Origin: a virus
Reading direction: 5' to 3' (one strand)
DNA length: 25,378 nt
Virus record (IMG/VR): IMGVR_UViG_3300035701_000263
Span: 1-25,378 of that record
Position numbers and translations under genes: made by a program. Shown here in pieces: positions 2,050-22,197 of the stretch. Below the pieces are notes generated by a model. The model ran no database searches and had not been told where the DNA came from. It saw nothing but the letters and a program-made list of their open reading frames with translations. Position 1 is the first letter of the stretch. Each line of letters begins with the position of its first letter.

Positions 2050-2456
2050 AATATAATTCCCACCCTAAAAGAATTCATCATTTCTGCGCCTTCCGAAATG
2101 CCATTATCGTTCCCTGCGATAAAATACCTGCCACCCAGACTATATGTCGCCCAGAATGGCTTCACCGCAATGCCGAGATTCCAGATTGCTTCGATAGAAT
2201 GATGGTTAAGCGAAAAAGGGTTACTCCGTGGGGCCGTGTAAACCAATGCCCCCTCGAATTCCGAGAGATAATATGCTTTATTACCGAAGAACTTCCCGGC
2301 AAATTTCGCCTGGTTCAATTCCAGTTTTGGCAGGCGATATTCAAAAGAAGAATTTAGGCCCTTCGTCTGTTCGATATAAAGGTAGCTCTCGGCGCTTGCC
2401 GCCGTCATCATCAACCCGCATATTAAGAGAGCGATTAACGCTTTATGGTATAGGAT
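2046..2456 (-). CDS. Exported outer-membrane-type beta-barrel protein, no canonical start
   Basis: From about 2456 the frame reads as a near-perfect signal peptide (LYHKALIALLICGLMM then TAASA before ESYLY), followed by about 110 residues of alternating, aromatic-rich strands that end in ...SFRVGIIF. The terminal Phe is the usual signal for outer-membrane barrel assembly. No ATG, GTG or TTG stands before the signal peptide. The frame is open to an ATG at 2621, but that adds an Arg-rich stretch overlapping the fibre gene by 179 bases. I place the start at an ATC (2454-2456), 8 bases after AGGGGG; the first canonical codons, TTG-ATG-ATG at 2414-2406, would remove most of the signal. Likely host-surface modification; function inferred. 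Confidence 0.6.
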   Translation of the reverse strand: MLYHKALIALLICGLMMTAASAESYLYIEQTKGLNSSFEYRLPKLELNQAKFAGKFFGNKAYYLSEFEGALVYTAPRSNPFSLNHHSIEAIWNLGIAVKPFWATYSLGGRYFIAGNDNGISEGAEMMNSFRVGIIF

Positions 2457-5109
2457 AGAAAAATTCCCCCTGGACTGATTTAGTCCCCGAAGCGGTCCAT
2501 GCTCCCGCCGATATCGTCTTATAGCACGAAACGGTCGCTGAATCTTTTGGCAGTAAAATATACCCGCCATTCGCTGTTGCCCCGTTATCCGCCGCCATCG
2601 CCGTATGGCAAGCCGTCCCATTTGACGGCAAGGTCGCGTGGGAAGTCAGGGGAACGGTAAAGGTAGCTTCTGTAGAGTTGCTCGTGCCGGTAATATAATA
2701 ATAAACGTGGACCTCTTTCCCGATAGTCTTATAGATGATCTCCTTTGTCGGAGTGGCGGCCCATCCAACCACGGTGGATGAGCTCGAATAATCGGTAAGA
2801 GCGGTCGTGTAAATGTCCGTTCCGATGATAAGGGTATTAATTGTCGTGGCGTTTATCGTGCCGCCCTCCACCTTATCCCCGCTTATTTGATTGGCTGCCA
2901 AGGTCAACGTTCCGGCAGACACATCAAGGGTTTTCCCCGATCCAACGGTTACATTGGAAGTGGCGATCGTAGCGTCATCGATTGTCCCGCCGTTAACATC
3001 CATCGTTGTAACCGTTCCCAGGTTAGCGCAAGTCTTATCGGCCGCGCTCCACGGGCCATTGATGGTCAAAGTTCCCGTGGCATTTCCAATTGTCGTCCCG
3101 CCGGTTGAAACGGTATTGAGAGATAAAAGCCCGCTCCCCTTAGAAAAGATTGTTAAAGGAATGTTGGTGGGATTGCCAGTTGCTTCGAGCGAAGGCCCTG
3201 CTCCGGTTCCATTCGATATTGTTAGCTCGCAAGTTGCGCTCGCAATCTGTTTGAATTTGAGAATCTCAGCATTGTTGGCATCTGTAATTGATCCATCACT
3301 ATCAATCCCTAACAATTGGGTCCCCATGCTTCCAATCATTCTGAAATTATTTGTATAAATTATACCGTTGGATTGCCCCCTATCACAATGATTGGCGACT
3401 TCTTCTTTATTTAATGCCCTGTTATAAATTACGGCTCGGCCAACATCCCCCGAGAAAAATGCTGTATTCTGAAAAGTATACTCACATCCAATCCGAACCC
3501 CGCGTGTATTTGTTACGTTATAGCCGCCATCTGACGTAGAATATTCTCTCCCATTAACATAAAGTTTTACATTTGTTCCGTCCCTTACGCCAACAAGATG
3601 ATACCAGGTAGCGGTATTCCGGTTAGCAGAACTGCTGTTCTGATATATCCTGTTAAAGCTTGTTCCGTTACCACAAACAAAAGTCCATCCATAATATTTA
3701 TTCCAGTAAATTTGCCAGCCAGGATAAGCACCGCCAACCTCCCCATCGCCGTTCCCAATTACTGAATGATCCGCAGATGAATCAGAAAATCCAGGTCTTA
3801 CCCATATCTCAACAGCAAAAGAACCCGTCCCAAAATCAAAGTTAGTATCATGGGGAAATAAAACTAAAGAAGTGGAACCATCAAAATTATAAGCGCCTCC
3901 ATATCTTCCCGCCGTCCATCCCCCGGCGCCAGCGGTAATCGTTCCAATCCCGCCATATAAACCGCCTGCATAAAGGGTAGTCCCTGTTCCCTCCATGAAA
4001 TTGGTTGCGAAAATCAATCCTTTTTCAGTTCCGTAACTATGTTGCCAAAGTGAACTCAAAACCATGCGACCGATGCCAGTTCCTTTAGGAGTAAAAGTCA
4101 TGCCAATATTTGTATCTCCACCCGTTGCGGAAATATCCGGCACGAGATTGGTTGCCGCATTTGAAATAGTTAGGTAATTGACCGCGTTTGAAACGGTTGT
4201 CGGAAAAGCAATTATGCTTTGGTCTCCGGCATCTTTAATATTGCTTGCCGAAGCAATCCGAATGTCCCCGGATGCAAGGTATAAAGCATAATTGAGCCCT
4301 GAGCTGGAAGCATTATTAGCCTCGGCATAGACCGCCACATTATTCGCCCCGGTATGCGTATCGGTAGAAGAAAAATACCCGCCATAAGCAATCCCGGCAT
4401 TGGTTGCCGAAGCAACTTTCCCGTATCCGCTAACCCCCATTGCATTATAAGCTGCCGAGGTAAGCCCCCATCCGCTAAGTCCAGCAGCTGCATAACTCCC
4501 ATCCGCAACCGATTCCCCGATTAAACCTATATATTTTGTTGATGTCCCGCCGGAATCCCCCTCTGAAAAAATAACTTGTGCCCTCGGATAATCTGTTGTA
4601 GAGGCAGTTGAACCAAGCAGGATTTTATTGCTTACTCCTGCTTGCCCGATACCGATCCCTGCGAATTGAGTTGGATTGTTAACGGTCAAATTCCCGATAG
4701 TTGCTGCCGTAAAGCTGGCAGTTGTAACAATCCCAAGATCGGCAATGGTATTCCCGGCATTGGTCCAGTTCCCAGATATTGAGGTTAAAGCCAAAGTTCC
4801 GATAGTCGCATTGGTTATACTGGCATTGGCAATACCAGATATATTACCGGCCAGGTATAAATCTTTCCAGGGATAAGAGCCCGATCCCAGGCTGAAAACT
4901 TCTCTCGTCGATCTCGCCCCGGTCGATTCCCGCGGATAATAATTGCCGGTAAGGTGCAGATTGATCGCATTAAAATCATTCGCATCAATTATCTCCGTGC
5001 CCGCGCCAGTATCGTTCAGGAATGTTTTCCAGAAGTCCGTTTCATCCGCCCGGGCAATCCCTCCGATTGCCAGGACTAACATCAACCCGACTAACATTTT
5101 TTTTAACAT
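2443..5109 (-). CDS. Large LamG-containing tail-fibre-like protein with signal peptide
   Basis: An 888-residue protein following the tail hub, the usual position of receptor-binding fibres. A Sec signal peptide (MLKKMLVGLMLVLAIGG, cut after ARA) is followed by Ser/Thr/Asn/Gly-rich repetitive beta structure (residues 80-350). A LamG/concanavalin-type lectin domain spans about 365-577 (AYNFDGSTS, FAVEIWVRP, WYHLVGVRDG, VKLYVNG, IYNRALNKEEV); more repetitive beta and a compact C-terminal region follow. AGGAGG is 8 bases from the ATG at 5109 and only 2 from the one at 5115, so I use 5109. The signal peptide is odd for a virion protein assembled in the cytoplasm. Alternatives are a secreted or surface-anchored adhesin. 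Confidence 0.75.
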   Translation of the reverse strand: MLKKMLVGLMLVLAIGGIARADETDFWKTFLNDTGAGTEIIDANDFNAINLHLTGNYYPRESTGARSTREVFSLGSGSYPWKDLYLAGNISGIANASITNATIGTLALTSISGNWTNAGNTIADLGIVTTASFTAATIGNLTVNNPTQFAGIGIGQAGVSNKILLGSTASTTDYPRAQVIFSEGDSGGTSTKYIGLIGESVADGSYAAAGLSGWGLTSAAYNAMGVSGYGKVASATNAGIAYGGYFSSTDTHTGANNVAVYAEANNASSSGLNYALYLASGDIRIASASNIKDAGDQSIIAFPTTVSNAVNYLTISNAATNLVPDISATGGDTNIGMTFTPKGTGIGRMVLSSLWQHSYGTEKGLIFATNFMEGTGTTLYAGGLYGGIGTITAGAGGWTAGRYGGAYNFDGSTSLVLFPHDTNFDFGTGSFAVEIWVRPGFSDSSADHSVIGNGDGEVGGAYPGWQIYWNKYYGWTFVCGNGTSFNRIYQNSSSANRNTATWYHLVGVRDGTNVKLYVNGREYSTSDGGYNVTNTRGVRIGCEYTFQNTAFFSGDVGRAVIYNRALNKEEVANHCDRGQSNGIIYTNNFRMIGSMGTQLLGIDSDGSITDANNAEILKFKQIASATCELTISNGTGAGPSLEATGNPTNIPLTIFSKGSGLLSLNTVSTGGTTIGNATGTLTINGPWSAADKTCANLGTVTTMDVNGGTIDDATIATSNVTVGSGKTLDVSAGTLTLAANQISGDKVEGGTINATTINTLIIGTDIYTTALTDYSSSSTVVGWAATPTKEIIYKTIGKEVHVYYYITGTSNSTEATFTVPLTSHATLPSNGTACHTAMAADNGATANGGYILLPKDSATVSCYKTISAGAWTASGTKSVQGEFFYPIP

Positions 5110-5119
5110 ATCCATCCTC

Positions 5120-6394
5120 CTATATCTCTCGTAAAGTTATCGTTGACTTAAAACTCATCACATCATGTATAATTTTTATTATCTTCATTTCCTTCGATAT
5201 CTTGATCCCTCCCCTACTCTGGCGACCGGTGAAAAGCGACGACCCGAAAAGGCTATGCCCCCATAATGAGGCCGGGGAAACAGACGGATCTCCGTAATAA
5301 TTGAGTTTTACCCGGTCCAGCAGTTTTAATTGCGGCACGAATTTAGTTTCGATCGTGACTTCTTCTTTTGGGTTAAAATATGCGGCAAAAAGACTGTCGC
5401 ATACCGTTTGCCGTGTTGCATCGGACGTTACCAGCCGATTATCGACAGAATAGGTTCGCTGCCCGTATTTCCAGGTCGAGCTGTTATCCCCCGGCTTCCA
5501 GGACTCAACCGATTCGATCAGCGGATCCGTGTTATACCAAGCGATCCGGTTAAATACGTTGCGAAGCCCCTCGTTATAATCAAAAGCCCTCAAAATATTG
5601 ATAGTTTTTTGCTCGGCTATCCCGGTCCCATTGAAGGTGAATTGGACCGAAGCCGAAGGCTCCTTCGACTGGAATTTGAGCCTGAAATCCGCCCCTACCC
5701 AATGGGCCGAATTGCTGACCTCGGCCATCTTATCTAATGCTTGAAGGCAACTGTAATCCCTGAAATCATAGAGGTCGGCCACGATGTCATTGCCAGGGGC
5801 GATATCCGCCCCAGCCAGGAAGGGATGGAAAACGTAAGCGCCACCTATCTGGAGATCATAAAGATATTGAGCAACCTCGGATACCAGTTTCGTATCATAC
5901 CAGTCAGTTTCGCCACTCGGGAGCAGTCCCTCGTTCACATAATCCGCCGGTGTTTCGTCAAATAACGTGCTTGGTGCAATGCAGGGAATATAGATCGTGC
6001 CGTCCGATTGGGTGTTTATCTCGTCCCCCACGATCAGCCCGGCGCCGATATCGTAGGGATATTCGGTTCCATCATCCGCAATATATCCCGCCTCGATCTT
6101 TATTTCCGTCTTGTGCCTGGTCAGGAACCCATAAAAATAACTCGCGGAATAGCTTTCATTGGCCCATTTGAAAAGGTCGTTTTTGCAGGTCAGGCCGAAT
6201 CCACCCTGGGTGAAATTGTTAAGTTCGAGATGGTCAATATTCCAAACGATCGGATCGACCGAAAAGATATCTGAGGTTACATCATACCAACTGGTTTCAT
6301 AATAGGATGATCCGGGGATAAGCAGTCGCCGTTTGATCTTTATCCGTTTGAAGCAATGTTGATAATCCTTTTCGATCTCAAAAAGCAGGCTCAC
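5120..6394 (-). CDS. Tail hub / tail-tip protein
   Basis: A 424-residue protein directly after the distal-tail gene and before the fibre, the place of the gp27-like hub or tail-associated protein in siphoviruses. It is rich in beta strands and aromatic residues (WYDVTSDIF, YDLQIGGAYVFHPF). Its C-terminal half (LLDRVKLNYYGDPSVSPASLW, then KIIKIIHDVMSFKSTITLREI) resembles the closing beta domain of hub proteins. The GTG start overlaps the previous stop as GTGA, with AAGGAAAC just ahead. I see no peptidase motif. The call rests on gene order plus fold-like features rather than a diagnostic motif. Confidence 0.6.
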   Translation of the reverse strand: MSLLFEIEKDYQHCFKRIKIKRRLLIPGSSYYETSWYDVTSDIFSVDPIVWNIDHLELNNFTQGGFGLTCKNDLFKWANESYSASYFYGFLTRHKTEIKIEAGYIADDGTEYPYDIGAGLIVGDEINTQSDGTIYIPCIAPSTLFDETPADYVNEGLLPSGETDWYDTKLVSEVAQYLYDLQIGGAYVFHPFLAGADIAPGNDIVADLYDFRDYSCLQALDKMAEVSNSAHWVGADFRLKFQSKEPSASVQFTFNGTGIAEQKTINILRAFDYNEGLRNVFNRIAWYNTDPLIESVESWKPGDNSSTWKYGQRTYSVDNRLVTSDATRQTVCDSLFAAYFNPKEEVTIETKFVPQLKLLDRVKLNYYGDPSVSPASLWGHSLFGSSLFTGRQSRGGIKISKEMKIIKIIHDVMSFKSTITLREI

Positions 6395-7143
6395 GTTTCC
6401 TTCACCTCAAAGGAGCCTGCATAGCAACGCTCCCCGGCAACGGTAAAGGCCAGTATTTTCCTGAAATTAAAGTTAATCATATTGCAATAATATTGATCTT
6501 CGACCTCGGAATCATCCGGCATGAACCAGAAACTTGCGTTCTGATTTTTCAACCATTCGATATAATCCCGGGTTGTTTTCGGAACATTATTAAAGCTGAA
6601 TGTGTTTTGATATTTACTGGTAAGCGATTCGATAACTATCACGGAGCCGCCGTTTACTTTCTCATGCTCGGTCTGCCTAAAATGAGCAATGGGATTTTCC
6701 TGGTCCGGCATATCGTCGTCAGAAATGCTGAAATGCTCCTGATAGGCCAGAAGTTCGCCAATCTGCTTTTGTGCGTTGGCAATAATTGTTTTAGTCGCGG
6801 ATAATTTTATCTTTAGTGTGCTGACTGAATTAAAGGAATAAAAGTTGTCGGTTGTGGTGTTTACTGTTTCATTGATCGGCGTGCTGAAATCAACGTAACC
6901 GCCCCCATCCCAATACTGGACATTAAATTCCTTGAGGTTGTGGCCGAGAACGGAGATCCGGTCCATTGTAACCACTCCCGGCCAGATAACCTCAATCGTT
7001 TCGGTAACGACATCGCTGCTTCCAACCGATTGCCATTGGGTAGAAAAGGTGCGGTCATATAGGCTTGCCTTGCTGGTAGCGCCGCTCGATACTGTCAAAG
7101 TGGTAAACGAATCAACCCGATTGACCGTTAGAAATCTCATCAT
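6391..7143 (-). CDS. Distal tail protein-like, discoidin-like N-terminus
   Basis: A 250-residue protein immediately after the tape measure, in the position of the distal tail protein that caps the tail tube and joins it to the hub. Residues 30-120 (TFSTQWQSVGSS, IEVIWPGVVTMDRISVLGHN, FNVQYWDGGG) look like a galactose-binding/discoidin jelly-roll. The C-terminal part (FWFMPDDSEVEDQYYCNMINF) is typical of tail-tip beta proteins. The start overlaps the tape-measure stop as ATGA; a second ATG follows at once. A carbohydrate-binding role at the tail tip is possible but inferred. Confidence 0.6.
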   Translation of the reverse strand: MMRFLTVNRVDSFTTLTVSSGATSKASLYDRTFSTQWQSVGSSDVVTETIEVIWPGVVTMDRISVLGHNLKEFNVQYWDGGGYVDFSTPINETVNTTTDNFYSFNSVSTLKIKLSATKTIIANAQKQIGELLAYQEHFSISDDDMPDQENPIAHFRQTEHEKVNGGSVIVIESLTSKYQNTFSFNNVPKTTRDYIEWLKNQNASFWFMPDDSEVEDQYYCNMINFNFRKILAFTVAGERCYAGSFEVKET

Positions 7144-9368
7144 ACGGTTAAGTTCCGCCTCTCTATTTTTTTGTTGTAGTAGGCGATCAATTTGGCGAAT
7201 TGCAGAGCATCGGATTCGGTTCCCATGAAGGCACCGACGCTAATATGAATATGCGTTTCCGATGACCCTCCAGCCGGGATGATCGTTTCACCCTTGTGGA
7301 CCAGCGCGGGCCCGGTTTCCTGGACAACACCGCCGGATTGATATTTTGGTAGTGCGGCAATCTTTTGCGCGAGATCGAGTTTCTCTTGTGCCGCTTCTAA
7401 TTCCGCAACACCGAGTAAAGTATTGATTTCGGCGATACGAGTTTTCAGCGCCGCAACTTTACCTCTCTGTTCAGTAGTATTTGTGCCGGGCAATGTCGCT
7501 TTTAATTGTTCAAAGGGCAATTGTAATTCAAGGGCTGTTTTTTCATTTTTCAGCGTTTTATATTCCGATGGTAATTGTCCGGCCTTTGCATAAAGAGCTT
7601 TCAATGCTTGTGATTGCGTCATTCCTACGATGTCGATTCCGGCAACTTCCTTAATCGCTGTTGCCTGTGTGCTTGCACCGAAATATGCCTTTGCTTGTCC
7701 CGCCCTCACTGCTTCGTTATATTGATTTTTGGTTATTGTTCCTGCTTTTAATTGTTCTTTTAATTTATTTACTTGTTCTGGCCCAAATAATCCCTTGCCC
7801 AATGTTTCAACAATATCTACCGCTTTTGATATCTTCGTCTTTTCGCGCCCGATCTCATCCAGTTTCTCATTGGTCTTTTGGACCATTTTGTCGTAGGCTT
7901 CCTTGGTATATTCAGCCACCGATTTACTTTGCCCACCCAGAAGATTAAGAAACCCCCCGACCGCCATGCCGATAACCCCACCTACCCCACCGGCCAGAAC
8001 CGTTCCAATATCCCCAAACTGGCCCAGCATGGAATTTAACCCCTTGGCCATCGGTATAAAAGCTTTGGTTACGAGGGTCTTAGTGATATCTTTAGCTAAC
8101 TTTTCAACGGCATTTTCCGATCCGGTAGCGGCCGCCATGAAGGAAGAGGCCATCAGTTTAGCGGTTTCTTTTGCTTGCTCTAATTCGTGGTCATGGAGTT
8201 TATCGATCAGCTTTACGCGTTCATTATGCTGAAGGTGTTTGTCATTGGTTATTTTACCTTCGATGATCTTCAGTTTATCCCTGTCATCGCCGGCAAGTTT
8301 GATCTCGCGGTCCCAATATTCCTGTTCAGCTTTGCTTTTTTTGTCAATTCGCTCTTGATCCTTTTTTGCCTTTGCTTGTTCTGCCGCTTCATCCTTTTTA
8401 ATATTTAATCCCAAAATTGTTGATAAATTAGTGGATATTTTTTCTTTTTTATCCGATTGTTTTTGATATAAATCAATAACATCTTTTGTATGTTGAGCTT
8501 CTAACTTTTTATTTTCTTCCAATGCTACCTTGAATTTTCCGAAGTCCCGGGAAACAACAGCATCGAAAACCCCTTTGCAGATGTTGCCGAATTCTTGCAT
8601 ATTCAGGATCAGTCCCTTTACCTGAACTTCGGCAAATTTAATCATCGCCGTGCCAACACTGGCTAACCATCCAAGCATCGGCAGGAAAACTCGGCCAGAT
8701 GTTTCGCCTAATTCTCCAAATGCCGTTTTTGCTTTTCTTATGCTCCCTTCCGCCGTGTTTCCTAATTTTTCAGTTTGACCGCCATAAAGTTCGACTGCTT
8801 TTCTCAACGCCTCAGTAATCGGAATGTTCGTTCCTACTTCTATCCCGTATTGCCTGAGCCCCCGGGCATTTCCAAGCACGGCCATTGATAAGGCCTCGGT
8901 TGTTTCACTTAATGATTTTCCACTGCCGGATGACATATCCATTGCCAATTTGACCAAATTAAAAGAAGCAGGGGCATCTTTAGTGACTTTTAATAACGTA
9001 TTGAAAGATCGGATAACTTCTTCATCATTCACGCCCGACCAATCCATCATCTTTTGGGCAAAATCTTTAACGCTGTCAATAGTAACTTTATTTTCAAGCC
9101 CGAGATTTTTTATAGTCTGGGTTAATATGCGGCCTTCTCTTTCGCTTTCGATCGCGGCATCCGCCATTCCCTTCATGGCGGCAACCACGGCAGCAGCAGA
9201 AAGTGCTGGCAGTAATCCTTTAAAGAATCCGGTCAGTTGGTTGATCGATTCGCCGGACTTCTTCCCTGATTCCTGCATCTTATTCAGCGCATCGATCGTC
9301 TGTTCAAGCCCCTGGCCTTCCTTGATGGCCTTGATAATAAGTTTTATCTCTTGGTCATTTATCGCCAT
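7140..9368 (-). CDS. Tail tape measure protein
   Basis: A 742-residue protein that sets tail length and is threaded through the tube. It has an N-terminal helical region with a hydrophobic stretch (GLLPALSAAAVVAAMKGMAD), long charged helices (residues 270-400), a Gly/Ala-rich hydrophobic segment about 445-480 (VLAGGVGGVIGMAVGGFLNL), and the frequent C-terminal signature GGVVQETGPALVHKGETIIP followed by a short helix. At about 1.5 angstrom per residue the tail would be near 110 nm. The start overlaps the preceding small gene by 14 bases. No lytic domain is evident. Confidence 0.9.
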   Translation of the reverse strand: MAINDQEIKLIIKAIKEGQGLEQTIDALNKMQESGKKSGESINQLTGFFKGLLPALSAAAVVAAMKGMADAAIESEREGRILTQTIKNLGLENKVTIDSVKDFAQKMMDWSGVNDEEVIRSFNTLLKVTKDAPASFNLVKLAMDMSSGSGKSLSETTEALSMAVLGNARGLRQYGIEVGTNIPITEALRKAVELYGGQTEKLGNTAEGSIRKAKTAFGELGETSGRVFLPMLGWLASVGTAMIKFAEVQVKGLILNMQEFGNICKGVFDAVVSRDFGKFKVALEENKKLEAQHTKDVIDLYQKQSDKKEKISTNLSTILGLNIKKDEAAEQAKAKKDQERIDKKSKAEQEYWDREIKLAGDDRDKLKIIEGKITNDKHLQHNERVKLIDKLHDHELEQAKETAKLMASSFMAAATGSENAVEKLAKDITKTLVTKAFIPMAKGLNSMLGQFGDIGTVLAGGVGGVIGMAVGGFLNLLGGQSKSVAEYTKEAYDKMVQKTNEKLDEIGREKTKISKAVDIVETLGKGLFGPEQVNKLKEQLKAGTITKNQYNEAVRAGQAKAYFGASTQATAIKEVAGIDIVGMTQSQALKALYAKAGQLPSEYKTLKNEKTALELQLPFEQLKATLPGTNTTEQRGKVAALKTRIAEINTLLGVAELEAAQEKLDLAQKIAALPKYQSGGVVQETGPALVHKGETIIPAGGSSETHIHISVGAFMGTESDALQFAKLIAYYNKKIERRNLTV

Positions 9369-9549
9369 GTCTTGTTTCCTTCATAAATAGTTTGAGCGCT
9401 TCGAGTTCGCCCTGGGCCTTCACTTCCATCATCTTCAAGCGGTAATCAATGAATAAAAAGATGGTTACAAGCGGAATATCCCACCAACCAGAAAAACCGA
9501 GGTGGCGAAGCAAAGCCAATACGCCAAGTAAATATAATAATATGCGCAC
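9355..9549 (-). CDS. Small membrane protein just before the tape measure
   Basis: A 64-residue protein with two hydrophobic segments (about residues 3-15 and 22-34, LGFSGWWDIPLVTIFLFIDY) and a charged C-terminal helix (KMMEVKAQGELEALKLFMKE). GTG start with GAGGTGGTG about 9 bases ahead. It fills the slot between tail tube and tape measure that usually holds the two frameshift-linked tail assembly chaperones, but looks nothing like them. It could be a holin-like or inner-membrane assembly factor; no family recognised. Confidence 0.6.
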   Translation of the reverse strand: MRILLYLLGVLALLRHLGFSGWWDIPLVTIFLFIDYRLKMMEVKAQGELEALKLFMKETRHGDK

Positions 9550-9576
9550 TCTGTATTCACCACCTCGTTATTAAAA

Positions 9577-10551
9577 TTAAAGCGCCGAGAAATCGGTCCC
9601 GCACCGCAGCGTGTAGCTGATCGGAACGGTCGATCCGCCCACCGTGCCGGCAAACATATCAAATCCGATCGTTTCCTTCACCAATTCGCGGGAATTGATG
9701 TCCGGGATCGGATTTTTGAACCGAACCTTTGGAATTGTTGCGGTCAAGGTGTATACCTGCGCCCCGGAAATTATCTGGGTGCTTGTATAAACAATCGAGA
9801 TCGCCACATCATCCGCTTGCCGGAACTTATCCCAATTCGAGAGATCCTCGAAATCGAGAACGAATGAACCTTCACCCTTGAACGCTCCGCTCAAGACCGG
9901 CTGCCGGGTTTCTATTCCACCCGAGATCTTATGGTTCGGGATCACCAACCCGTTGGTTTCGGACCATTGAATTGATTCAAGATAAGCAGTTGGTCCATCC
10001 ACGGACATGACCGCTTCCTTAAACGACAAAGGATAGGTCGTCGGATAAGCAAAAGCTGACGGCGATCCTTCGGTCGCAAACTTCCCTCCCCCATCAATAT
10101 CAAGTTTTAGGAGTTGAGCCGCGCTATCTTTCCCTTGATTCCAGGCCAGTTTGTTTATCATATAGCCGGGAACCATTAAAGGATTGGCCCCGCCTTTGCT
10201 GCATTCAAGCGACAAGCTCTTGTCCACCGTCAACCCGGGCTCAAAAACATTGTCGTAGACTCCCGGTTCAACCTGGGAAGCGGAGGCAGTCCCATACATC
10301 GCTAACAGAAAGTAGCCGATAATATCGGGATAGGCGCTTAAATGCACGCCCCCCGGGGTCCATTGGCGGCCAGCCAAGGGTGTCGGAGCAAACCGGCTGG
10401 CATTTAATTCCCCGCCACGATCCATCATGTCAACATCGGGCTTCAATGATTCCCCCAAGATCGGGACCGAAATACTTGGGGAAGTCCCGTCGCCCCAGAC
10501 CGACTCAATTGCAAACTTTAGATAGCTGTCGTAACCCTGTAATGGACTCAT
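9577..10551 (-). CDS. Major tail tube protein
   Basis: A 324-residue protein that polymerises into the tail tube. It starts MSPLQGYDSYLKFAIESVWG, a typical opening for tube proteins of this type. It continues as a beta-rich body with a sequence around FKGEGSFVLDFEDLSNWDKF and ends in a beta strand (TVPISYTLRCGTDFSAL). AAGGAGGAG precedes the ATG. Position upstream of the tape measure and after the tail-terminator gene, plus length and composition, support the call. Confidence 0.75.
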   Translation of the reverse strand: MSPLQGYDSYLKFAIESVWGDGTSPSISVPILGESLKPDVDMMDRGGELNASRFAPTPLAGRQWTPGGVHLSAYPDIIGYFLLAMYGTASASQVEPGVYDNVFEPGLTVDKSLSLECSKGGANPLMVPGYMINKLAWNQGKDSAAQLLKLDIDGGGKFATEGSPSAFAYPTTYPLSFKEAVMSVDGPTAYLESIQWSETNGLVIPNHKISGGIETRQPVLSGAFKGEGSFVLDFEDLSNWDKFRQADDVAISIVYTSTQIISGAQVYTLTATIPKVRFKNPIPDINSRELVKETIGFDMFAGTVGGSTVPISYTLRCGTDFSAL

Positions 10552-10568
10552 TTTTTATCTCCTCCTTT

Positions 10569-10934
10569 TTAGTAACAATAGACGATGGCTTCGACCGTGA
10601 CATTCGGCGCGCCGGAGCCATTGAATACCACGAATTTAGCCCGTGGCGCCCGCACCTGATGGGTCGCATTGAGTGAAATAGATTCACTCGATACCAACGT
10701 CGCAGTTCCCGGGATATACCACCAGGCCTCGGCGGTGAAAGTGCCAGTCGAACTATCCCCGCTCGTCAGAATGAACGTTGAGCACCCGGTCGTATCTACA
10801 TAGCCGGACTGGCTGGACGTAATGACGACGGTCGAATTCCAACTCGTGTTAGCCGTATTGCTCGTGATATACAACCCGAAAGAGGCACTGACCAGAACCA
10901 GACACATCAGCAAACCGAATAAAATCCTTTTCAT
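10569..10934 (-). CDS. Secreted beta-rich protein, paralogue of 13231-13599
   Basis: A 121-residue protein with a clear Sec signal peptide (MKRILFGLLMCLVLVSASFG) and a mature part rich in Ser, Thr and short beta strands (TFILTSGDSSTGTFTAEAWW, TLVSSESISLNA). The second half aligns by eye with the product of 13231-13599: both have a -L-[VL]-S-[ST]-E-S-[IV]- block and a closing V-E-[AV]-x-[VI] strand, and similar length. AGGAGG lies ahead of the ATG. It sits between tail terminator and tail tube, where cytoplasmic virion proteins are expected. A decoration protein or an exported surface factor are possibilities. Confidence 0.75.
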   Translation of the reverse strand: MKRILFGLLMCLVLVSASFGLYITSNTANTSWNSTVVITSSQSGYVDTTGCSTFILTSGDSSTGTFTAEAWWYIPGTATLVSSESISLNATHQVRAPRAKFVVFNGSGAPNVTVEAIVYCY

Positions 10935-10948
10935 TTTCTTTCCCTCCT

Positions 10949-11410
10949 TTATATTCTCTGCCCGGCCGTAAAATACTTGAACTCAAGTTCTAATCTTATC
11001 GTCACCTCCCTATCAGAATTATCAATGATTCTCGTATTTGTCGTCCTTAATCGATAATTATAAACATTCCCTGCAAACTGAAGGTCGGAGCCTTCAAATG
11101 CTTTTTTGATATCGTTCTCAAATCGAAATATCCCGACCTGTTGGGTGTCCCCTATGATCTGACTGTCGAGATGATTTCTTACATCGAGCACACCTCTGAT
11201 AATAATAATCATTTTGTTTTGTCGTAGCAGGGGGAATTCCGCCCATTCTTCCTCGCTCAATTCCGGCTCAAGAATGATACATGGACGATCACTATTGATG
11301 CCCACCTGCCGATCACCCTCAAGCACCTTTTTGACATAAGAAAGTGACGCCGCGGTCCGCAGCCGGTTGGCAAGTTCGATCCAGACGGTTTCTTCGGTGG
11401 TATAGGTCAT
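10949..11410 (-). CDS. Tail terminator / completion protein
   Basis: A 153-residue protein after the gp10-like gene and before the tail tube, the standard position of the tail terminator (lambda gpU-like) that caps tail polymerisation. It begins MTYTTEETVWIELANRLRTA and shows alternating helices and strands (IIIIRGVLDVRNHL, VTIRLELEFKYFT). I chose the ATG at 11408-11410: it overlaps the previous stop as ATGA and has GGAGG 8 bases ahead, whereas the upstream TTG at 11425 has no ribosome site. The call depends mainly on gene order and size. Confidence 0.6.
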   Translation of the reverse strand: MTYTTEETVWIELANRLRTAASLSYVKKVLEGDRQVGINSDRPCIILEPELSEEEWAEFPLLRQNKMIIIIRGVLDVRNHLDSQIIGDTQQVGIFRFENDIKKAFEGSDLQFAGNVYNYRLRTTNTRIIDNSDREVTIRLELEFKYFTAGQRI

Positions 11411-11817
11411 GCGCCCATCCTCCAATGCAGCAGATAGGTTAAAGCAACATCAACATTCAGGGCCAGCCGGTCCTTGATCTCTTGGATTGAATTTTTAACC
11501 ATAGCCGCGGGCCCGGCCCGGCGGTAGATTATTTCCCCTGGCCAGCGCTTGTCTGTCCTCTCCCCTGTTTCAATGAACGGAAAATATTTGACAAGGTTAT
11601 ATATCATCCAGATCATTGGCGCCAATCTCTGGACCTGGAAGCCGCGCCGGAGGTTGCCGATGATCTTCGGCGTTTTCTCCGAGATATAACGCTTCCCTTC
11701 GTTTACAGTTACGTTCACCGCTCTATCCATTTCGGGAATAAGCCGTTCACCCGCCACCTTAACGATCGCGGCGTAATTTTTAACCTGCGTCATGTCAATA
11801 TCAAGCGTGAAGGTCAT
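11407..11817 (-). CDS. HK97 gp10-like head-tail/tail component
   Basis: A 136-residue protein of the HK97 gp10 type, involved in head-tail joining or tail completion. Features are an N-terminal helical part (VAGERLIPEMDRAVNVTVNE), the central SEKTPKIIGNLRRGFQV block (gp10-like proteins have a related P-x-x-T-G-x-L-x-x-S segment), FIETGERTDKRWPG, then a C-terminal helix. The ATG overlaps the connector stop by one base (TAATG). It is followed by the tail terminator, the canonical order. Confidence 0.7.
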   Translation of the reverse strand: MTFTLDIDMTQVKNYAAIVKVAGERLIPEMDRAVNVTVNEGKRYISEKTPKIIGNLRRGFQVQRLAPMIWMIYNLVKYFPFIETGERTDKRWPGEIIYRRAGPAAMVKNSIQEIKDRLALNVDVALTYLLHWRMGA

Positions 11818-12842
11818 TAAATAGATCTCCTCTTATAACGGTCAAGCGTCGCATAAATCTCTTTCGGAACGCTGGTAATGGTTACGGACTGGACGATCCC
11901 GGTTGCGTCAATAAAGGTCCGGGTTTTCAGCCCGCTCAAGCAGGCTACCATCTGGATCGCACACTCCCGGATCTCGTTTGGCGGTTCCTGGTAGGCGGTA
12001 TAATTGATCTTAAACCGCTTATTGCCGGGATAAAAAGCACCGATGGCCGACTCCACATACCCGGGATAAAGGAAAAATTCAGTAAGATCAGGATCGGCAT
12101 TGTAAGTTAGGGCTTCCCCGTTATCGTAAACCGTCGGCGTGCCGTAGATCGGGTAATAGCTCACAAATGCCTTATCCTGGCCTTCTTCAATATCCTGGTA
12201 TTCGTCAGTAACGGCCTTGCTGACGAACTGAACGCCGGTATACTTTATGATCCTATCGGTAACGGAATCGATCAGGCGCAGCAACATGGTATCCGAATTC
12301 TTATCGCCCAGCGCGATATTTAATTCTTTTTTAACGTCCTGAAGCGTGCAAAGCCCGTCAAGTGAGCCACCGCCGAGCGATGCCGCAGACTTATCGGACT
12401 CAGCTGACAAATCGCTGTTAAAATAGCTGTATTTATACCACTTCGCCAGCGTGCCGGTGGGATCAATGGCATAGGTAAAAGGTTGGTCTGCCTCCATCGT
12501 AAAAGGACTGCCGGTTATTTCGGCATAGGTTCCGCCCTCGGTGTCGCTCCGATAAACCTTGATCTTGTTATAGGCACAACTTATGACCTGCGCGTGAGCG
12601 CCGTGATCCCAGGTCAAGGCCCCAATGACTATGGTATTGCCGGAAGGAACCCCTCCGATCTTGACAATCTCTGCCCCTTCTTCCCCGGGATCGCCGACGA
12701 AGATATGATCGCCGTTTGAAAAGCCCTCTATGCTATCAACCGTCAAGGCTATATCGCCAGCGTCGGCCGCCACAGTCAGGACCGTAGATTCCGCCCCGGC
12801 TACATCGAGTATTTTTAATAACCGATCGATTACTAAAGACAT
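11817..12842 (-). CDS. Head-tail connector (gp6-like) with an extra N-terminal beta domain
   Basis: A 341-residue protein. Residues about 160-341 match the gp6-like DNA-packaging/connector family, which forms a ring under the portal: LCTLQDVKKELNIALGDKNS, then LLRLIDSVTDRIIKYTGVQF, and a C-terminal helix-turn-strand region (IRECAIQMVACLSGLKT). The first 155 residues are an added beta-rich domain (LTVDSIEGFSNGDHIFVGD, IVIGALTWDHGAHAQVI, IKVYRSDTEGGTYAEI) of a kind seen in other phage structural proteins; stand-alone connectors are nearer 100 residues. AGGAGAG precedes the ATG. Cargo or decoration display is one possible role of the extra domain. Confidence 0.75.
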   Translation of the reverse strand: MSLVIDRLLKILDVAGAESTVLTVAADAGDIALTVDSIEGFSNGDHIFVGDPGEEGAEIVKIGGVPSGNTIVIGALTWDHGAHAQVISCAYNKIKVYRSDTEGGTYAEITGSPFTMEADQPFTYAIDPTGTLAKWYKYSYFNSDLSAESDKSAASLGGGSLDGLCTLQDVKKELNIALGDKNSDTMLLRLIDSVTDRIIKYTGVQFVSKAVTDEYQDIEEGQDKAFVSYYPIYGTPTVYDNGEALTYNADPDLTEFFLYPGYVESAIGAFYPGNKRFKINYTAYQEPPNEIRECAIQMVACLSGLKTRTFIDATGIVQSVTITSVPKEIYATLDRYKRRSI

Positions 12843-12859
12843 TTATCTCTCCTGTTTAA

Positions 12860-12887
12860 TTAAAGGGGAGAGAACCTCCCCGTTTAA
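12860..12887 (-). terminator. Hairpin before the connector gene
   Basis: GGGGAG (12865-12870) pairs perfectly with CTCCCC (12876-12881) around AGAAC, and TTAAA/TTTAA extend the stem across one bulged base. On the minus strand only three Ts follow directly, so this is a weak terminator or, more likely, an attenuator or mRNA-processing/stability element between the secreted-protein genes and the connector. Confidence 0.4.
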
Positions 12888-12889
12888 TA

Positions 12890-13219
12890 TTATGGAAGCG
12901 CTATGGCGTCGTAGGTTGCGAGCTGGCCGATCCTGATCGTCCTGTATGTATAGGTGTTGGTCGGCCCTTCAGCTATGATATAAAGATAATAACCAGTCCC
13001 GTCTACGCTAACGCCCATGATCGCTTCGCCGGAAACGATCTCGGTCGTGGCCGCCCTGGTTTCAACGCTGTAAAATTTCAAGGCCCCAGCCTCCGGCTTT
13101 TTGGTCTTGGTGAACTTGCCGTAAACCCCGCCTTTATTCGTGCTGAAATAATCAGCGGTTGCCAGCGCGACGCCAGCCATGAACATGAAACAGACTACAA
13201 GTGCAATAATCTTTTTCAT
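12890..13219 (-). CDS. Small secreted protein of the capsid region
   Basis: A 109-residue protein with a Sec signal peptide (MKKIIALVVCFMFMAGVALA, then TADYF) and a mature, beta-rich domain (GGVYGKFTKTKKPEAGALKF, IVSGEAIMGVSVDGTGYYLY). AGGAGG precedes the ATG. No family recognised. It lies next to another secreted-protein gene (13231-13599), between capsid and connector genes, where head decoration or stabilising proteins are often encoded, but such proteins do not normally carry an export signal. Confidence 0.75.
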   Translation of the reverse strand: MKKIIALVVCFMFMAGVALATADYFSTNKGGVYGKFTKTKKPEAGALKFYSVETRAATTEIVSGEAIMGVSVDGTGYYLYIIAEGPTNTYTYRTIRIGQLATYDAIALP

Positions 13220-13230
13220 CTTTTACCCTC

Positions 13231-13599
13231 CTAATTCAAAATATAGACTTCCGCCGTCCCGCGCGCCGTCAATGGTTCTGCCCCACACGTTGCCAACAGC
13301 CTGAAATATGGCGTCAGCAATGTTTTCGAGTCGCCGACCGTAACCGATTCGGTCGATAGCAGGCTCGTCCCATTGCTTTGATAGAATAATACGGAATATG
13401 TTTCCACCGTCGAATTGGTTGTCAGCGTCAAATAAACCTTCGTTGCCCCTACTTCCTTGAATATCCCGCTTGATGGGCAATAGATGCTTTGCGCTTCGGT
13501 TGTGGTCTTAACAATATTCCAATCCACTGCTTTGGCTGCGAAACTCACCGTCGAGAAGGCAATGACCAGCACCAATGCCACTAAAAGAAGTTTTTTCAT
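13231..13599 (-). CDS. Secreted beta-rich protein, paralogue of 10569-10934
   Basis: A 122-residue protein with a Sec signal peptide (MKKLLLVALVLVIAFSTVSFA) and a mature beta-rich domain (TKVYLTLTTNSTVETYSVLF, SLLSTESVTVGDSKTLL). Its second half resembles the product of 10569-10934, placing the two as a duplicated family. The ATG overlaps the previous stop as ATGA, with GAAGGTGAAG ahead, so it is co-translated with the 89-aa capsid-region protein. Two cysteines in the mature part could form a disulfide outside the cytoplasm. Function unknown. Confidence 0.75.
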   Translation of the reverse strand: MKKLLLVALVLVIAFSTVSFAAKAVDWNIVKTTTEAQSIYCPSSGIFKEVGATKVYLTLTTNSTVETYSVLFYQSNGTSLLSTESVTVGDSKTLLTPYFRLLATCGAEPLTARGTAEVYILN

Positions 13600-13865
13600 T
13601 TCTTCACCTTCCTCGGCCGGCCTACCTTTGCCCCGGGTATCTTCGCCTTTTTGTTTGACGGTGATTCGATCGGAGCCGCCGGCAAAGCCTTTGCAAGGAC
13701 CTTTCCCTCAATGCGTCCGGATTTAATCAGGCCATCAACACATTCCCTGGTAAACAACCCTTTTTCAATGAGGGTTTCATCAAGGGTCGCCCCGCACGGT
13801 ATTACCTGCCGGCCATTATCGTCGCTGTAAGCAACGCCCTTCGGGTCCAAAACTTTATATCCCAT
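13596..13865 (-). CDS. Small basic-tailed protein after the capsid gene
   Basis: An 89-residue protein. The N-terminal part (GYKVLDPKGVAYSDDNGRQV, DETLIEKGLFTRECVDGLIK) looks like a small folded domain. The C-terminus is a lysine-rich tail ending KVGRPRKVKK, with a GRPRK core like an AT-hook that could bind DNA. The ATG at 13863-13865 is 5-6 bases after AGGAGG; an in-frame GTG just before it is too close. The position after the major capsid gene fits an auxiliary head protein; family not recognised. Confidence 0.65.
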   Translation of the reverse strand: MGYKVLDPKGVAYSDDNGRQVIPCGATLDETLIEKGLFTRECVDGLIKSGRIEGKVLAKALPAAPIESPSNKKAKIPGAKVGRPRKVKK

Positions 13866-13887
13866 CACACCCTCCTTTTCAGAATCG

Positions 13888-13912
13888 GCAGGAGGGAGTT
13901 AATCCCCCCTGC
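13888..13912 (-). terminator. Hairpin between capsid gene and downstream genes
   Basis: GCAGGAGGGA (13888-13897) pairs with TCCCCCCTGC (13903-13912) around GTTAA, with a single mismatch. No T-tract follows on the minus strand, so partial attenuation or RNase-blocking of the capsid mRNA is more likely than full termination. Confidence 0.4.
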
Positions 13913-13928
13913 CGCTCCGCTAAACTTA

Positions 13929-15212
13929 TCAGGCAGAAATTTCCTGCGCTCTGCAAACGCCGCCGGTAGAAGCAGTCGTGCTGACCAGCACCTTACCGCC
14001 GTATCTCTTAATACCGCGAATGGTAGAAAGATCGGTCGTGAAGTAGTAGTCCTTGCTCAGATCGATCCTGGTCGTATTGTCGAGAACCGTGACGCACTTG
14101 CTCATGTCCGCGAGAATGAGCACGTTATCGGTCCCGGTTGTCCGCTTGTCACCGCCGACATCAAGCGCCGATCCGATCTTGGTATTGAGGATAAAAGGAA
14201 TGCCGAGCGGTGAGAAATCCCCGCCACTGGCATATTGCGGGAACAGTTTATAGCCTGCTCCATTTTCAAGATTGCCGATCAGGGCCTTAACAACCCGGTT
14301 CCCGATCCAGCGAAGGGAACCCTGGTTACACTCATCGCTGATCGCAGCCAGTTGGTCCTCCATCGTGGAAAATACGAAATTGGCCTTTGTCACCGCCGTA
14401 TCAAGCACGGTGAGAGCATCAAAGACCAGCCCATCAAGCAGATCGGAGTCATTGGTTACGTTACCAACCGCCAGGCGAAGGTCAAGGAACCTTGCCATCG
14501 CCGAAGTATAAGCATTGGTGAAGGCCGTAACCAGGTCAATGCCTTTCTGCGACAGGAACTCGTTGGAAACTGCGGTGAACGCACCAGCCCGTGCTACGCT
14601 AACCGTCGGGTTAGTGAAGGTCGGGGTGCTTTCGGTGGCTGCTGTCCCCTGGTCAGCAATATCAACCACGGCGATGCCATACATAAGCGGGTGGATCTTG
14701 CCGTTCGCAATGATCGCATCCTTGCTCATGTTCGCATACATGACCGAACTGGCATAGATCATCTGCATGATCTCCGCGTCAGTTTCGCTCGGAACCGCGT
14801 ATCCGCCAACTGCGACGCTGTCCGACCGGGCCGGGGTCGGTGCTTTGTGGCCGAGAACCTTGTAATCGGCATCGTTTTGCTGGTCTATTTCGTTTGAAAT
14901 AGCCTTGGCATCAGACAGATCCCGCGTCGCCAGCCCCCGGAGCATCCGGTTAAAGGCCGCTTCCTCCTCGTTAACCTTCCTGATACCGATGATCTTGCCG
15001 GTGTGCATATCAAACACTTTCAACTCTTTCTCTAACGGTAAAAGGTTAAGGTTAGGCAGGTCGGTCAGTTTGATCGATTTCAGCTTCTCATCGACCTTTG
15101 CATCGATCTTCGCTTCCAGGGCCACCTTTTCCGCGACTTCATCAACTGCCGGGATCGCCGCCTTCACCGCATCAGAAACTACACTTTTGACTTCTTCTAA
15201 TGTGACAACCAT
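13929..15212 (-). CDS. HK97-fold major capsid protein
   Basis: A 427-residue precursor that forms the icosahedral shell. The N-terminal 110 residues are charged and helical (VADEVAEKVALEAKID-like heptads, then LKSIKLTDLPNLNLLPLEKE), as in the scaffolding delta-domain that the prohead protease removes. Residues about 125-427 carry the HK97-type core: GGYAVPSETDAEIMQMIYAS, VARAGAFTAVSNEFLSQKGI, DLRLAVGN, IGNRVVKALIG and a C-terminal TTDLSTIRGIKRYGGKVLV. AGGAGG is 7 bases from the ATG. It follows the protease gene in the usual order. Confidence 0.9.
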   Translation of the reverse strand: MVVTLEEVKSVVSDAVKAAIPAVDEVAEKVALEAKIDAKVDEKLKSIKLTDLPNLNLLPLEKELKVFDMHTGKIIGIRKVNEEEAAFNRMLRGLATRDLSDAKAISNEIDQQNDADYKVLGHKAPTPARSDSVAVGGYAVPSETDAEIMQMIYASSVMYANMSKDAIIANGKIHPLMYGIAVVDIADQGTAATESTPTFTNPTVSVARAGAFTAVSNEFLSQKGIDLVTAFTNAYTSAMARFLDLRLAVGNVTNDSDLLDGLVFDALTVLDTAVTKANFVFSTMEDQLAAISDECNQGSLRWIGNRVVKALIGNLENGAGYKLFPQYASGGDFSPLGIPFILNTKIGSALDVGGDKRTTGTDNVLILADMSKCVTVLDNTTRIDLSKDYYFTTDLSTIRGIKRYGGKVLVSTTASTGGVCRAQEISA

Positions 15213-16213
15213 GATTCGTCCTCCTTGATTAACATTTTATTCGGCCGCTCCTGCGCCTCCCGCAAAGCATTCTCATCTTCCGGGCTCAATACTCGGCCGG
15301 CTTTGATACTTTCTTCGATGACTGCTATGCAGTCTTGAAGATTTCTCGCCGTGCCTTTCTCGGCCTCTCCTGGAAGATCAAGCCCTTTGCGCGTCAGCGC
15401 GTCGGGATCAGCTCCTACTCCTACAAGCGAAACCTCGTAAATCTTCGCAAAGGTCAAATGCGATGGGTTATCTTTATCCTCATGGAACCAATTACCCCCG
15501 ATACTTAAAGCCCGGCCATGACCTTCGGCATAGACCGTCCGCGCATGAGCAACCGGCGGGAAATCCGAAGCGGAAAATACCATCTTGAACTTCAGGCCAA
15601 GTTCATCCTCCATGATATAACCGCCCATTTTAGGGTTGAACGATCCCGCGATATTCTCGACGCAGTTGTAATGGTCCAGTAAACATACCGGGTTTTTGTG
15701 AAAGTCATCCAGGTCATAAATGAAATTACGCAACGCGGTAAAAACCGTAGGAATATCCCCGTAACGATCCTCTTTATTTTTCGTATTGGCATAACCTTCG
15801 ATCGTGACCGCGCCGTTTGCAGCCTTATCGATCTTCATATCAATGATCGAGAATTCCTTCCTTGCTTCCACCCCCGCCGCGCTCCTTGCCTCCTGATAAG
15901 CCTTGACCTGATCTTCGTTCTGGACCGTGATAATCCTTTTCATTCCTTTTCCCCCCTTTTCAAATAGCGGACATTCCGGGATCGACCCCGGCTCGAAATC
16001 TTTGCAGACCTGCGGCTTCTGTTCATTGATTGAACACTTGCCATCCTCGGTCAACTTCGGGCATGGCGCGAATATTTTTAACGAGCCATTTTCTCTGATT
16101 TTAATATCACGTGCGCCCATCCACGCCTTAATATCCGGCGTATCCCATTCTTTTATCTCTGGGAAAATAAGCCACTTGCAACACTCGCCACAAGCATTTT
16201 TACATTCAACCAT
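15197..16213 (-). CDS. Prohead protease fused to an N-terminal YkgJ-like cysteine cluster
   Basis: A 338-residue protein. Residues about 91-290 are an HK97-type (U35/S78) prohead protease that trims the capsid delta-domain: VTIEGYANT, PVCLLDHYN with the catalytic His (about 181) and RALSIGGNW with the Ser (about 237). Residues 4-81 are a CxxxCxxCC cluster with a second block (APCPKL, DGKCSI, PQVCKDFEPG), the pattern of the YkgJ/CxxCxxCC family thought to bind zinc or iron. M91 (15941-15943) is preceded by GGGGGGAAAAGGA, so a free protease could be made from an internal start. The ATG overlaps the preceding stop (TGATG), and the 3' end overlaps the capsid start by 16 bases. Confidence 0.85.
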   Translation of the reverse strand: MVECKNACGECCKWLIFPEIKEWDTPDIKAWMGARDIKIRENGSLKIFAPCPKLTEDGKCSINEQKPQVCKDFEPGSIPECPLFEKGGKGMKRIITVQNEDQVKAYQEARSAAGVEARKEFSIIDMKIDKAANGAVTIEGYANTKNKEDRYGDIPTVFTALRNFIYDLDDFHKNPVCLLDHYNCVENIAGSFNPKMGGYIMEDELGLKFKMVFSASDFPPVAHARTVYAEGHGRALSIGGNWFHEDKDNPSHLTFAKIYEVSLVGVGADPDALTRKGLDLPGEAEKGTARNLQDCIAVIEESIKAGRVLSPEDENALREAQERPNKMLIKEDESWLSH

Positions 16214-21091: not shown

Positions 21092-21598
21092 CTAGACCTT
21101 CCCTTTTTTTACAAGAGGTATCAAAATGCTCTTCAGTTGAGCGTGATGTTTTGAGTGTTCGCTATTGTCAGAAAACAACATAAGATTTTCTACCCGGTTA
21201 TCGGCCTTGTTACTGTTTATGTGATGAACAATTTCAGTTGGAAGAAGTGGCCGCCCTAAATACTTTTCCATTATCAGCCGGTGTTCCATTACATACCCAT
21301 CTTTTGTCGAAAAAGGGTGAGAAGGGCAAAGAGAATAAAGATAGCCTTTGCATTTCATCTTCCCGCCATTCCACCGATAATGATGCTCACCCTTATGTAG
21401 TCTTGGCGTTATTCTTGCCGCGTCTAAAGTTCTTTCCCTTCCCTCTTTTGACCAATTAGGAGTCTTTCCTGTTTTGCTTTTTGTATAACAGATCTGGCTA
21501 CAATATTTTCCCCCACCTCTCTTTAATTCCGAGGGTAAGGCACCAAAGGACTTGCCACACAATTTACATTCGGATTTTATTCTTGTTATTTTTCTCAC
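21092..21598 (-). CDS. HNH endonuclease with N-terminal zinc ribbon
   Basis: A 168-residue nuclease. The N-terminal zinc ribbon uses CKLCGKSF and YCSQIC; the HNH core is [39 protein letters not shown] and a trailing HSKHH. GTG start overlapping the previous stop as GTGA. HNH proteins beside terS/terL are common: some act with terminase in cos cutting, others are mobile. The weak ribosome site and a related HNH gene at 16392-16814 favour a homing element, but a packaging role cannot be excluded. Confidence 0.85.
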
Positions 21599-22194
21599 AA
21601 ATAATATCTTGCCCCTAACACTCCAATAGCCAAATTAGTAACCCCGCTCCCAGATTGGAATGGATACATATCCCCAGCAACAGACACGTTTGGAGTAATA
21701 AACTGTTCTATCCCCACAAACAATCCCCAGCAAGGAATTGAATCGGGAAAAATGGCAAGCCCAGCTTTCAAAGAGGTATATTTATCGGCAGACTTCCAAA
21801 TATTCCCAGCCCCTCGAATTACTGCTCGCTGATCAGATAAAATCCGAGTATACCCAGCCTCAATCTCGACATCGGAACCAACATAGCTCAAGGTTGGGAA
21901 ACCACCGTAAATACCGACCGCTACTCCTTGCTTTGGGATAGGCCGGAGCTGTTCGACTACTTGCTTGGCTATTTCTTCCGGCGATTGTCTGAAACTGCCT
22001 TTGCCCCAGACGGTCTGTATGGAAGATGATTCCGGTTCGACCGGAGGATTTTCGAGGACTTGCTTTAATCTGGAATCAGGTGGCGTGTAGGTTTCATCGT
22101 TCGGTCCAGTCTGGTCAGGAACGTAACCACCAGCGAAGGAAGGGAGAGAAAAACAAAGCAGTAGCAAAACAATAACGCCGATTCGTTTTCGCAT
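21595..22194 (-). CDS. Exported outer-membrane-type protein at the head of the late operon
   Basis: A 199-residue protein with a Sec signal peptide ([21 protein letters not shown], cut before GGYVP), a Pro/Glu-rich linker (residues 25-80), and a C-terminal region of alternating strands ([39 protein letters not shown]) ending ...LGARYYL, like an outer-membrane barrel. The ATG at 22194 is 5 bases from GGAGG; the one at 22197 is only 2. It directly precedes the HNH and small-terminase genes. Phage-coded outer-membrane proteins such as Lom or Cor alter host surfaces or block superinfection; that role is inferred here. Confidence 0.75.
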
Positions 22195-22197
22195 CAT

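Follow-up and report, generated by a model that had tools for sequence, protein, structure and literature searches.

By the accepted view, tailed phages build their particles in the cytoplasm, with decoration proteins and fibers normally assembled without export. The head decoration proteins lambda gpD, T4 Hoc/Soc and T5 pb10 are small or beta-rich, are coded with the head genes and are added to the finished shell, some of them binding late. To our knowledge, none of the known head decoration proteins of tailed phages carries a Sec signal peptide. Small exported phage proteins of superinfection exclusion have been described as well, such as T5 Llp, TP-J34 Ltp and phi80/N15 Cor; Llp and Ltp are lipoproteins, and the exclusion genes lie outside the capsid block. 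A further point of comparison is phrog_5707, a family of beta proteins coded behind the major capsid protein (MCP) gene and listed in PHROGs as of unknown function.

The window described here is a 25,378-base IMG/VR record of a virus whose late region codes for three small proteins with signal peptides (P0001, P0002 and P0003). These are like gpD, Hoc/Soc and pb10 in being small or beta-rich and coded with head genes, but no homology between the two sets was seen. With Llp, Ltp and Cor, they share the character of small, predicted exported proteins. However, a lipobox, sought in five signal-peptide proteins of the window, including P0001-P0003, was found in none of them, unlike in Llp and Ltp. 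The phrog_5707 proteins are similar in size, in their beta-type sequence and in their place after the MCP gene. That family includes one secreted relative (L010), but the members in L031, L035, L188 and L195 have no signal peptide, and P0001-P0003 miss the family profile (no match at E ≤ 1; hhalign ranks 295-412 of 1010).

Organization of the Late Genes

All late genes lie on the minus strand, starting with the terminase, a portal with a MuF domain, an HNH gene, the prohead protease (15197..16213) and the MCP (Phage_capsid, 13929..15212). The MCP is followed by a 90-aa gene (13596..13868), P0002 (13231..13599), P0003 (12890..13219), the head-tail connector (11817..12842), a gp10-like protein and the tail completion protein (10949-11425). 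Then come P0001 (10569..10934), the tail tube protein (Phage_tube_2, 9577..10551), a 64-aa gene, the tape measure, the tail tip genes and an 888-aa protein of the LamG tail-fiber type (2443..5109), which has a signal peptide of its own (MLKKMLVGLMLVLAIGGIARA, followed by DETDF). The genes of P0002 and P0003 lie in the slot marked by the MCP and the connector; that of P0001 does not, being placed between tail completion and tail tube. With the MCP, connector, tail completion and tail tube genes located, the position around the connector genes that the sequence-only reading had given to the three proteins is borne out. The 90-aa gene, without a signal peptide, lies directly upstream of P0002, whose start codon overlaps its stop (4-nt overlap). 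It is the positional counterpart of a 46-78 aa gene that is coupled to the signal-peptide protein of relatives (see below).

Ahead of its gp6-like domain, the connector is extended N-terminally by ~160 aa, and the connectors of L174 and L182 are long, too. In the protease, a CxxCxxCC-type (PF03692) domain is fused ahead of the S78 protease domain. Outside the head-tail block, the window codes for a further signal-peptide protein (21595-22197) and for a protein of uncertain start with an internal signal-like stretch (2046-2621).

Three Small Signal-Peptide Proteins

The open reading frames were confirmed at 121 aa (P0001), 122 aa (P0002) and 109 aa (P0003), each with an ATG start and a good ribosome site; gene starts were taken from an in-house caller. 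The signal peptides reported earlier are present in all three, with an MKR/MKK n-region, a hydrophobic core and a SPase I-type end. They were called by an in-house rule, not by SignalP, and the cleavage points were placed by eye: after MKRILFGLLMCLVLVSASFG and before LYIT in P0001 (SFG/L), after MKKLLLVALVLVIAFSTVSFA and before AKAV in P0002 (SFA/A), and after MKKIIALVVCFMFMAGVALA and before TADY in P0003 (ALA/T). By the same rule, the positive n-region, hydrophobic core and SPase I motif of a Sec-type signal are kept in the pair formed by P0003 and its ortholog in the nearest relative. The mature domains of P0001 (Ser/Thr-rich), P0002 and P0003 are of the beta type.

A Sec signal peptide is unexpected on a protein assembled in the cytoplasm, a tension that is absent from the sequence-only reading. 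Secreted, beta-type proteins in the positions of decoration proteins are nevertheless what the analysis supports, the signal peptide of the post-MCP slot being kept in relatives. As to the role itself, position makes virion decoration plausible, as do the phrog_5707 proteins that occupy the same slot in other phages without being secreted, but cytoplasmic assembly would need no Sec signal.

Sequence and profile searches, IMG/VR and INPHARED included, found no homologs of P0001 or P0002; a match of P0001 to L120 was rejected as serine/threonine low complexity. No credible match was returned by tblastn against INPHARED with P0001-P0003, one member of the A5 family described below and one fiber N-terminus. 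Sequence searches of the PDB gave no match for P0002 or A5, nor for a member of phrog_5707 or the 109-aa cassette protein. P0003 was sought in 295 Elusimicrobiota genomes and found in none.

P0001 and P0002 had also been proposed as a duplicated family with an alignable second half. The block in question (LVSSESISL and LLSTESVTV) is present, but the similarity was not confirmed beyond chance, and the pair stays borderline in significance, backed by neither profiles nor structures. The mature parts gave no BLASTP match to each other. Their Smith-Waterman score was 51 (shuffled mean 31.8, p ~0.01; end-to-end p 0.004), and reciprocal phmmer searches (E 0.2-0.4) ranked each near the top among 489 proteins of 87 loci. 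These values, with the equal length, speak for paralogs that arose by duplication within this phage, whatever their function. Ser, Thr and Val are, however, abundant in both proteins, and windows from other loci with such a composition scored as high in 4/275 and 3/275 cases, i.e., 1-1.5%. Furthermore, BLAST and profile support is absent, and the two cysteines of each protein do not align. AlphaFold2 single-sequence models show beta strands (pLDDT 53.5 and 40.7) but are too poor to compare; the model of P0002, the better one yet still weak, found no match in BFVD by Foldseek at E ≤ 0.001. We consider a duplication unlikely, and none of the related phage genomes was seen to carry the pair. P0003, for its part, shows no convincing similarity to P0001 or P0002 (p 0.03-0.14, worse with softer gaps).

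Relatives and Probable Host

IMG/VR searches with P0001, P0002, MCP, TerL or portal alone yielded no confirmed relative. An alignment of portals led to 80 distant viral loci, and a second one to 80 bacterial loci. Among the bacterial loci, nine Elusimicrobiota metagenome-assembled genomes (MAGs) proved to have short proteases that share 47-56% identity with the protease of the window. The relatives were found with an alignment of these short proteases (A4), which yielded 80 viral loci, including about 40 close ones. Identity of the window protease to the Elusimicrobiota and related viral proteases is 43-65%. The relatives are metagenomic contigs throughout. Judging by the kinship of the proteases and by a single MAG contig, this phage lineage probably has its hosts among the Elusimicrobiota.

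The nearest relative is L173 (57% identity in TerL, 52% in the portal and 60% in the MCP). Behind its MCP, L173 has a 60-aa gene and then the ortholog of P0003 (7047-7376, 38% identity) with a signal peptide of its own.

The Slot behind the Major Capsid Protein

The order MCP, gene of 46-78 aa, signal-peptide beta protein of 129-149 aa and connector recurs in L177, L178, L179, L181, L183 and L254. The signal-peptide proteins in this slot form one family, A5, with about ten loci, a CFRK motif and two cysteines conserved in most members. One locus is an Elusimicrobiota-classified MAG (L277/L288), in which the A5 protein directly follows the MCP; L288 lacks the small gene. Identity among the A5 relatives is 26% for the signal region (vs. 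36%): it is kept in kind more than in letters, as expected of a real signal. P0002 shares with the family its signal peptide and its slot after MCP plus small gene. In a search with the A5 profile, P0002 was absent among the best matches listed, and the mature part of P0001 gave E 3.5. P0002 is of the same slot and kind as the A5 proteins, without being established as one of them.

Fusion of the small protein to the beta domain is seen in L184, L185 and L190, where hydrophobic core and small-residue motif are both retained. The segment is internal there, between two domains, which would suit a membrane-like helix inside the virion, for example, at the joint of an anchor and an exposed domain. 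Such a helix is an improbable, minor alternative for the hydrophobic N-termini as a whole. Even the fusions retain a positive n-region, an uncharged core and a cleavage motif of small residues (the AKA motif before the cleavage point in L184 and L190, where the sole start codon before the core is the beginning of the small protein), the lengths are those of signal peptides, and the segment occurs on unrelated mature domains.

Other proteins are found in the slot, too. In sister and more distant phages (L031, L035, L188, L195), it is filled by the phrog_5707 beta proteins without a signal peptide, a family of which L010 has a member with one; in L018 and L020, the slot holds other proteins with signal peptides. 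In L260, an A5 protein lies beside a non-secreted phrog_5707-like protein and a signal-peptide protein with GGTITVESGG-type repeats. The homolog of the latter in L203 likewise begins with a signal peptide when its start is correctly placed.

A close rival, which we regard as somewhat unlikely, is that these are accessory (moron-type) secreted proteins acting on the host envelope, expressed late and placed in the periplasm or at the surface, where they would mask receptors or block superinfection or re-adsorption to debris. The signal peptides in themselves favor it, as does the gap between MCP and connector, which in L009 and L120 also holds accessory genes of unrelated kinds. The tight coupling to the small post-MCP gene and the true fusions with it stand against an action in the envelope, and so does the fact that one of the secreted proteins is a homolog of slot proteins that are not secreted. 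Judged by sequence only, the blocks after the MCP in L009 (9931-13606) and L120 (14131-18364) are of sugar-transfer, nucleotidyltransferase-like and radical-SAM-like type.

By the stricter rule, signal-peptide proteins make up 28/282 of the lineage, compared with 1/285 in the sister groups and 15/1090 in the other portal-related loci. As the lineage was chosen partly for having A5, the fairer figure is 17/271 against 1/285 in the sisters (p 4e-5), after removal of duplicates, doubtful calls and A5. On the protease tree, the trait is clustered, with at least four gains or losses. Such patchy gain and loss fits accessory genes, too, and counts in favor of envelope proteins and against virion parts.

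Tail Fibers with Signal Peptides

The signal peptide of the LamG protein has counterparts in the tail-fiber genes of L264 (841 aa), L271 (463 aa), L268 (346 aa) and L276 (295 aa). Each of these is preceded by an 80-95 aa gene without a signal peptide; in L276, two further signal-peptide genes lie between this gene and the fiber. In two pairs, the fiber N-termini are conserved and the C-termini variable, as in tail fibers, and a collagen-like fiber with a signal peptide in L255 matches tail-fiber PHROGs (E 2e-23). A secreted fiber could cover the phage's own receptor and would then act in the envelope, and further predicted envelope proteins are present in the window (21595-22197) and at lysis-side positions of L264, L267, L271 and L276. 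Fiber signal peptides beside genes of the anchor type nevertheless fit virion parts better.

A two-gene cassette, made up of a 109-110 aa beta protein (ADIRYRLDG..PT..GH) and a signal-peptide fiber, occurs at three different places of the structural operon (L184, 336-1397; L255, 1721-3330; L272, reverse strand, 11935-14927). The fiber of the L255 cassette is the collagen-like one. The signal-peptide proteins beyond the tail genes of L264, L267, L271 and L276 are 140-154 aa long.

Possible Addition of Virion Parts after Lysis

Of the readings considered, the likeliest in our view is that P0001-P0003 belong to a set of Sec-exported proteins of virion appendages that join the particles after lysis; we give this slightly less than an even chance. 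The conserved slot, the signal peptide of the L173 ortholog, the fusions, the homology to phrog_5707 proteins in the slot, the fiber signal peptides and the enrichment all point in this direction. As we read it, the pattern marks exposed, late-added parts of the virion: head decoration, head fiber and tail fiber. Besides the repeated gain or loss of the trait, the assembly of such parts without export in other tailed phages counts against it, as does the lack of a family-profile match for P0001 and P0002.

The three proteins would be made from the late operon along with the head and tail genes, with a cleavable signal peptide, and would be exported to the periplasm to fold there, where the two conserved cysteines of A5 proteins could form a disulfide. 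Assembly of the particle proper would take place in the cytoplasm. Once the cell lyses, finished heads and tails would encounter the exported proteins, which would attach to them from outside. P0002 and P0003 would decorate the head, bound either to the capsid or to the small coupled protein; P0001 would sit close to the joint of head and tail, and the LamG protein would serve as a tail fiber. Such an addition is physically possible, since T4 tail fibers and Hoc/Soc have long been known to be addable to particles in vitro.

The wider proposal is that tailed phages of one lineage, whose hosts are probably Elusimicrobiota, use Sec to export their head-decoration and tail-fiber proteins and complete the particles outside the cytoplasm. 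Their appendages would be split into a cytoplasmic anchor gene and an exported exposed part. For now, this proposal is a doubtful one. No description of signal peptides on phage structural proteins as a pattern was found in the open-access literature searched. If fibers and decoration proteins were indeed Sec-exported, either the outermost parts would be added after lysis, their disulfides having formed in the periplasm, or soluble copies of the receptor-binding parts would be released and guard the infected cell. The pattern also offers a handle on the phages of an almost unstudied phylum.

Elusimicrobiota Chromosomal Clusters

On Elusimicrobiota chromosomes, a lone pair of portal and protease genes stands among housekeeping genes (L098, L101, L110 and L111, about 9850-11730). 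L287 (reverse strand, 6621-12094) and L284 (reverse strand, 5713-13866) have a cluster of MCP, connector and tail genes in which the tape measure is very short (224-231 aa). L098 and L287 belong to the same genome (G034), with pair and cluster at separate places. These dispersed portal-protease pairs and MCP-tail clusters look like an undescribed gene transfer agent.
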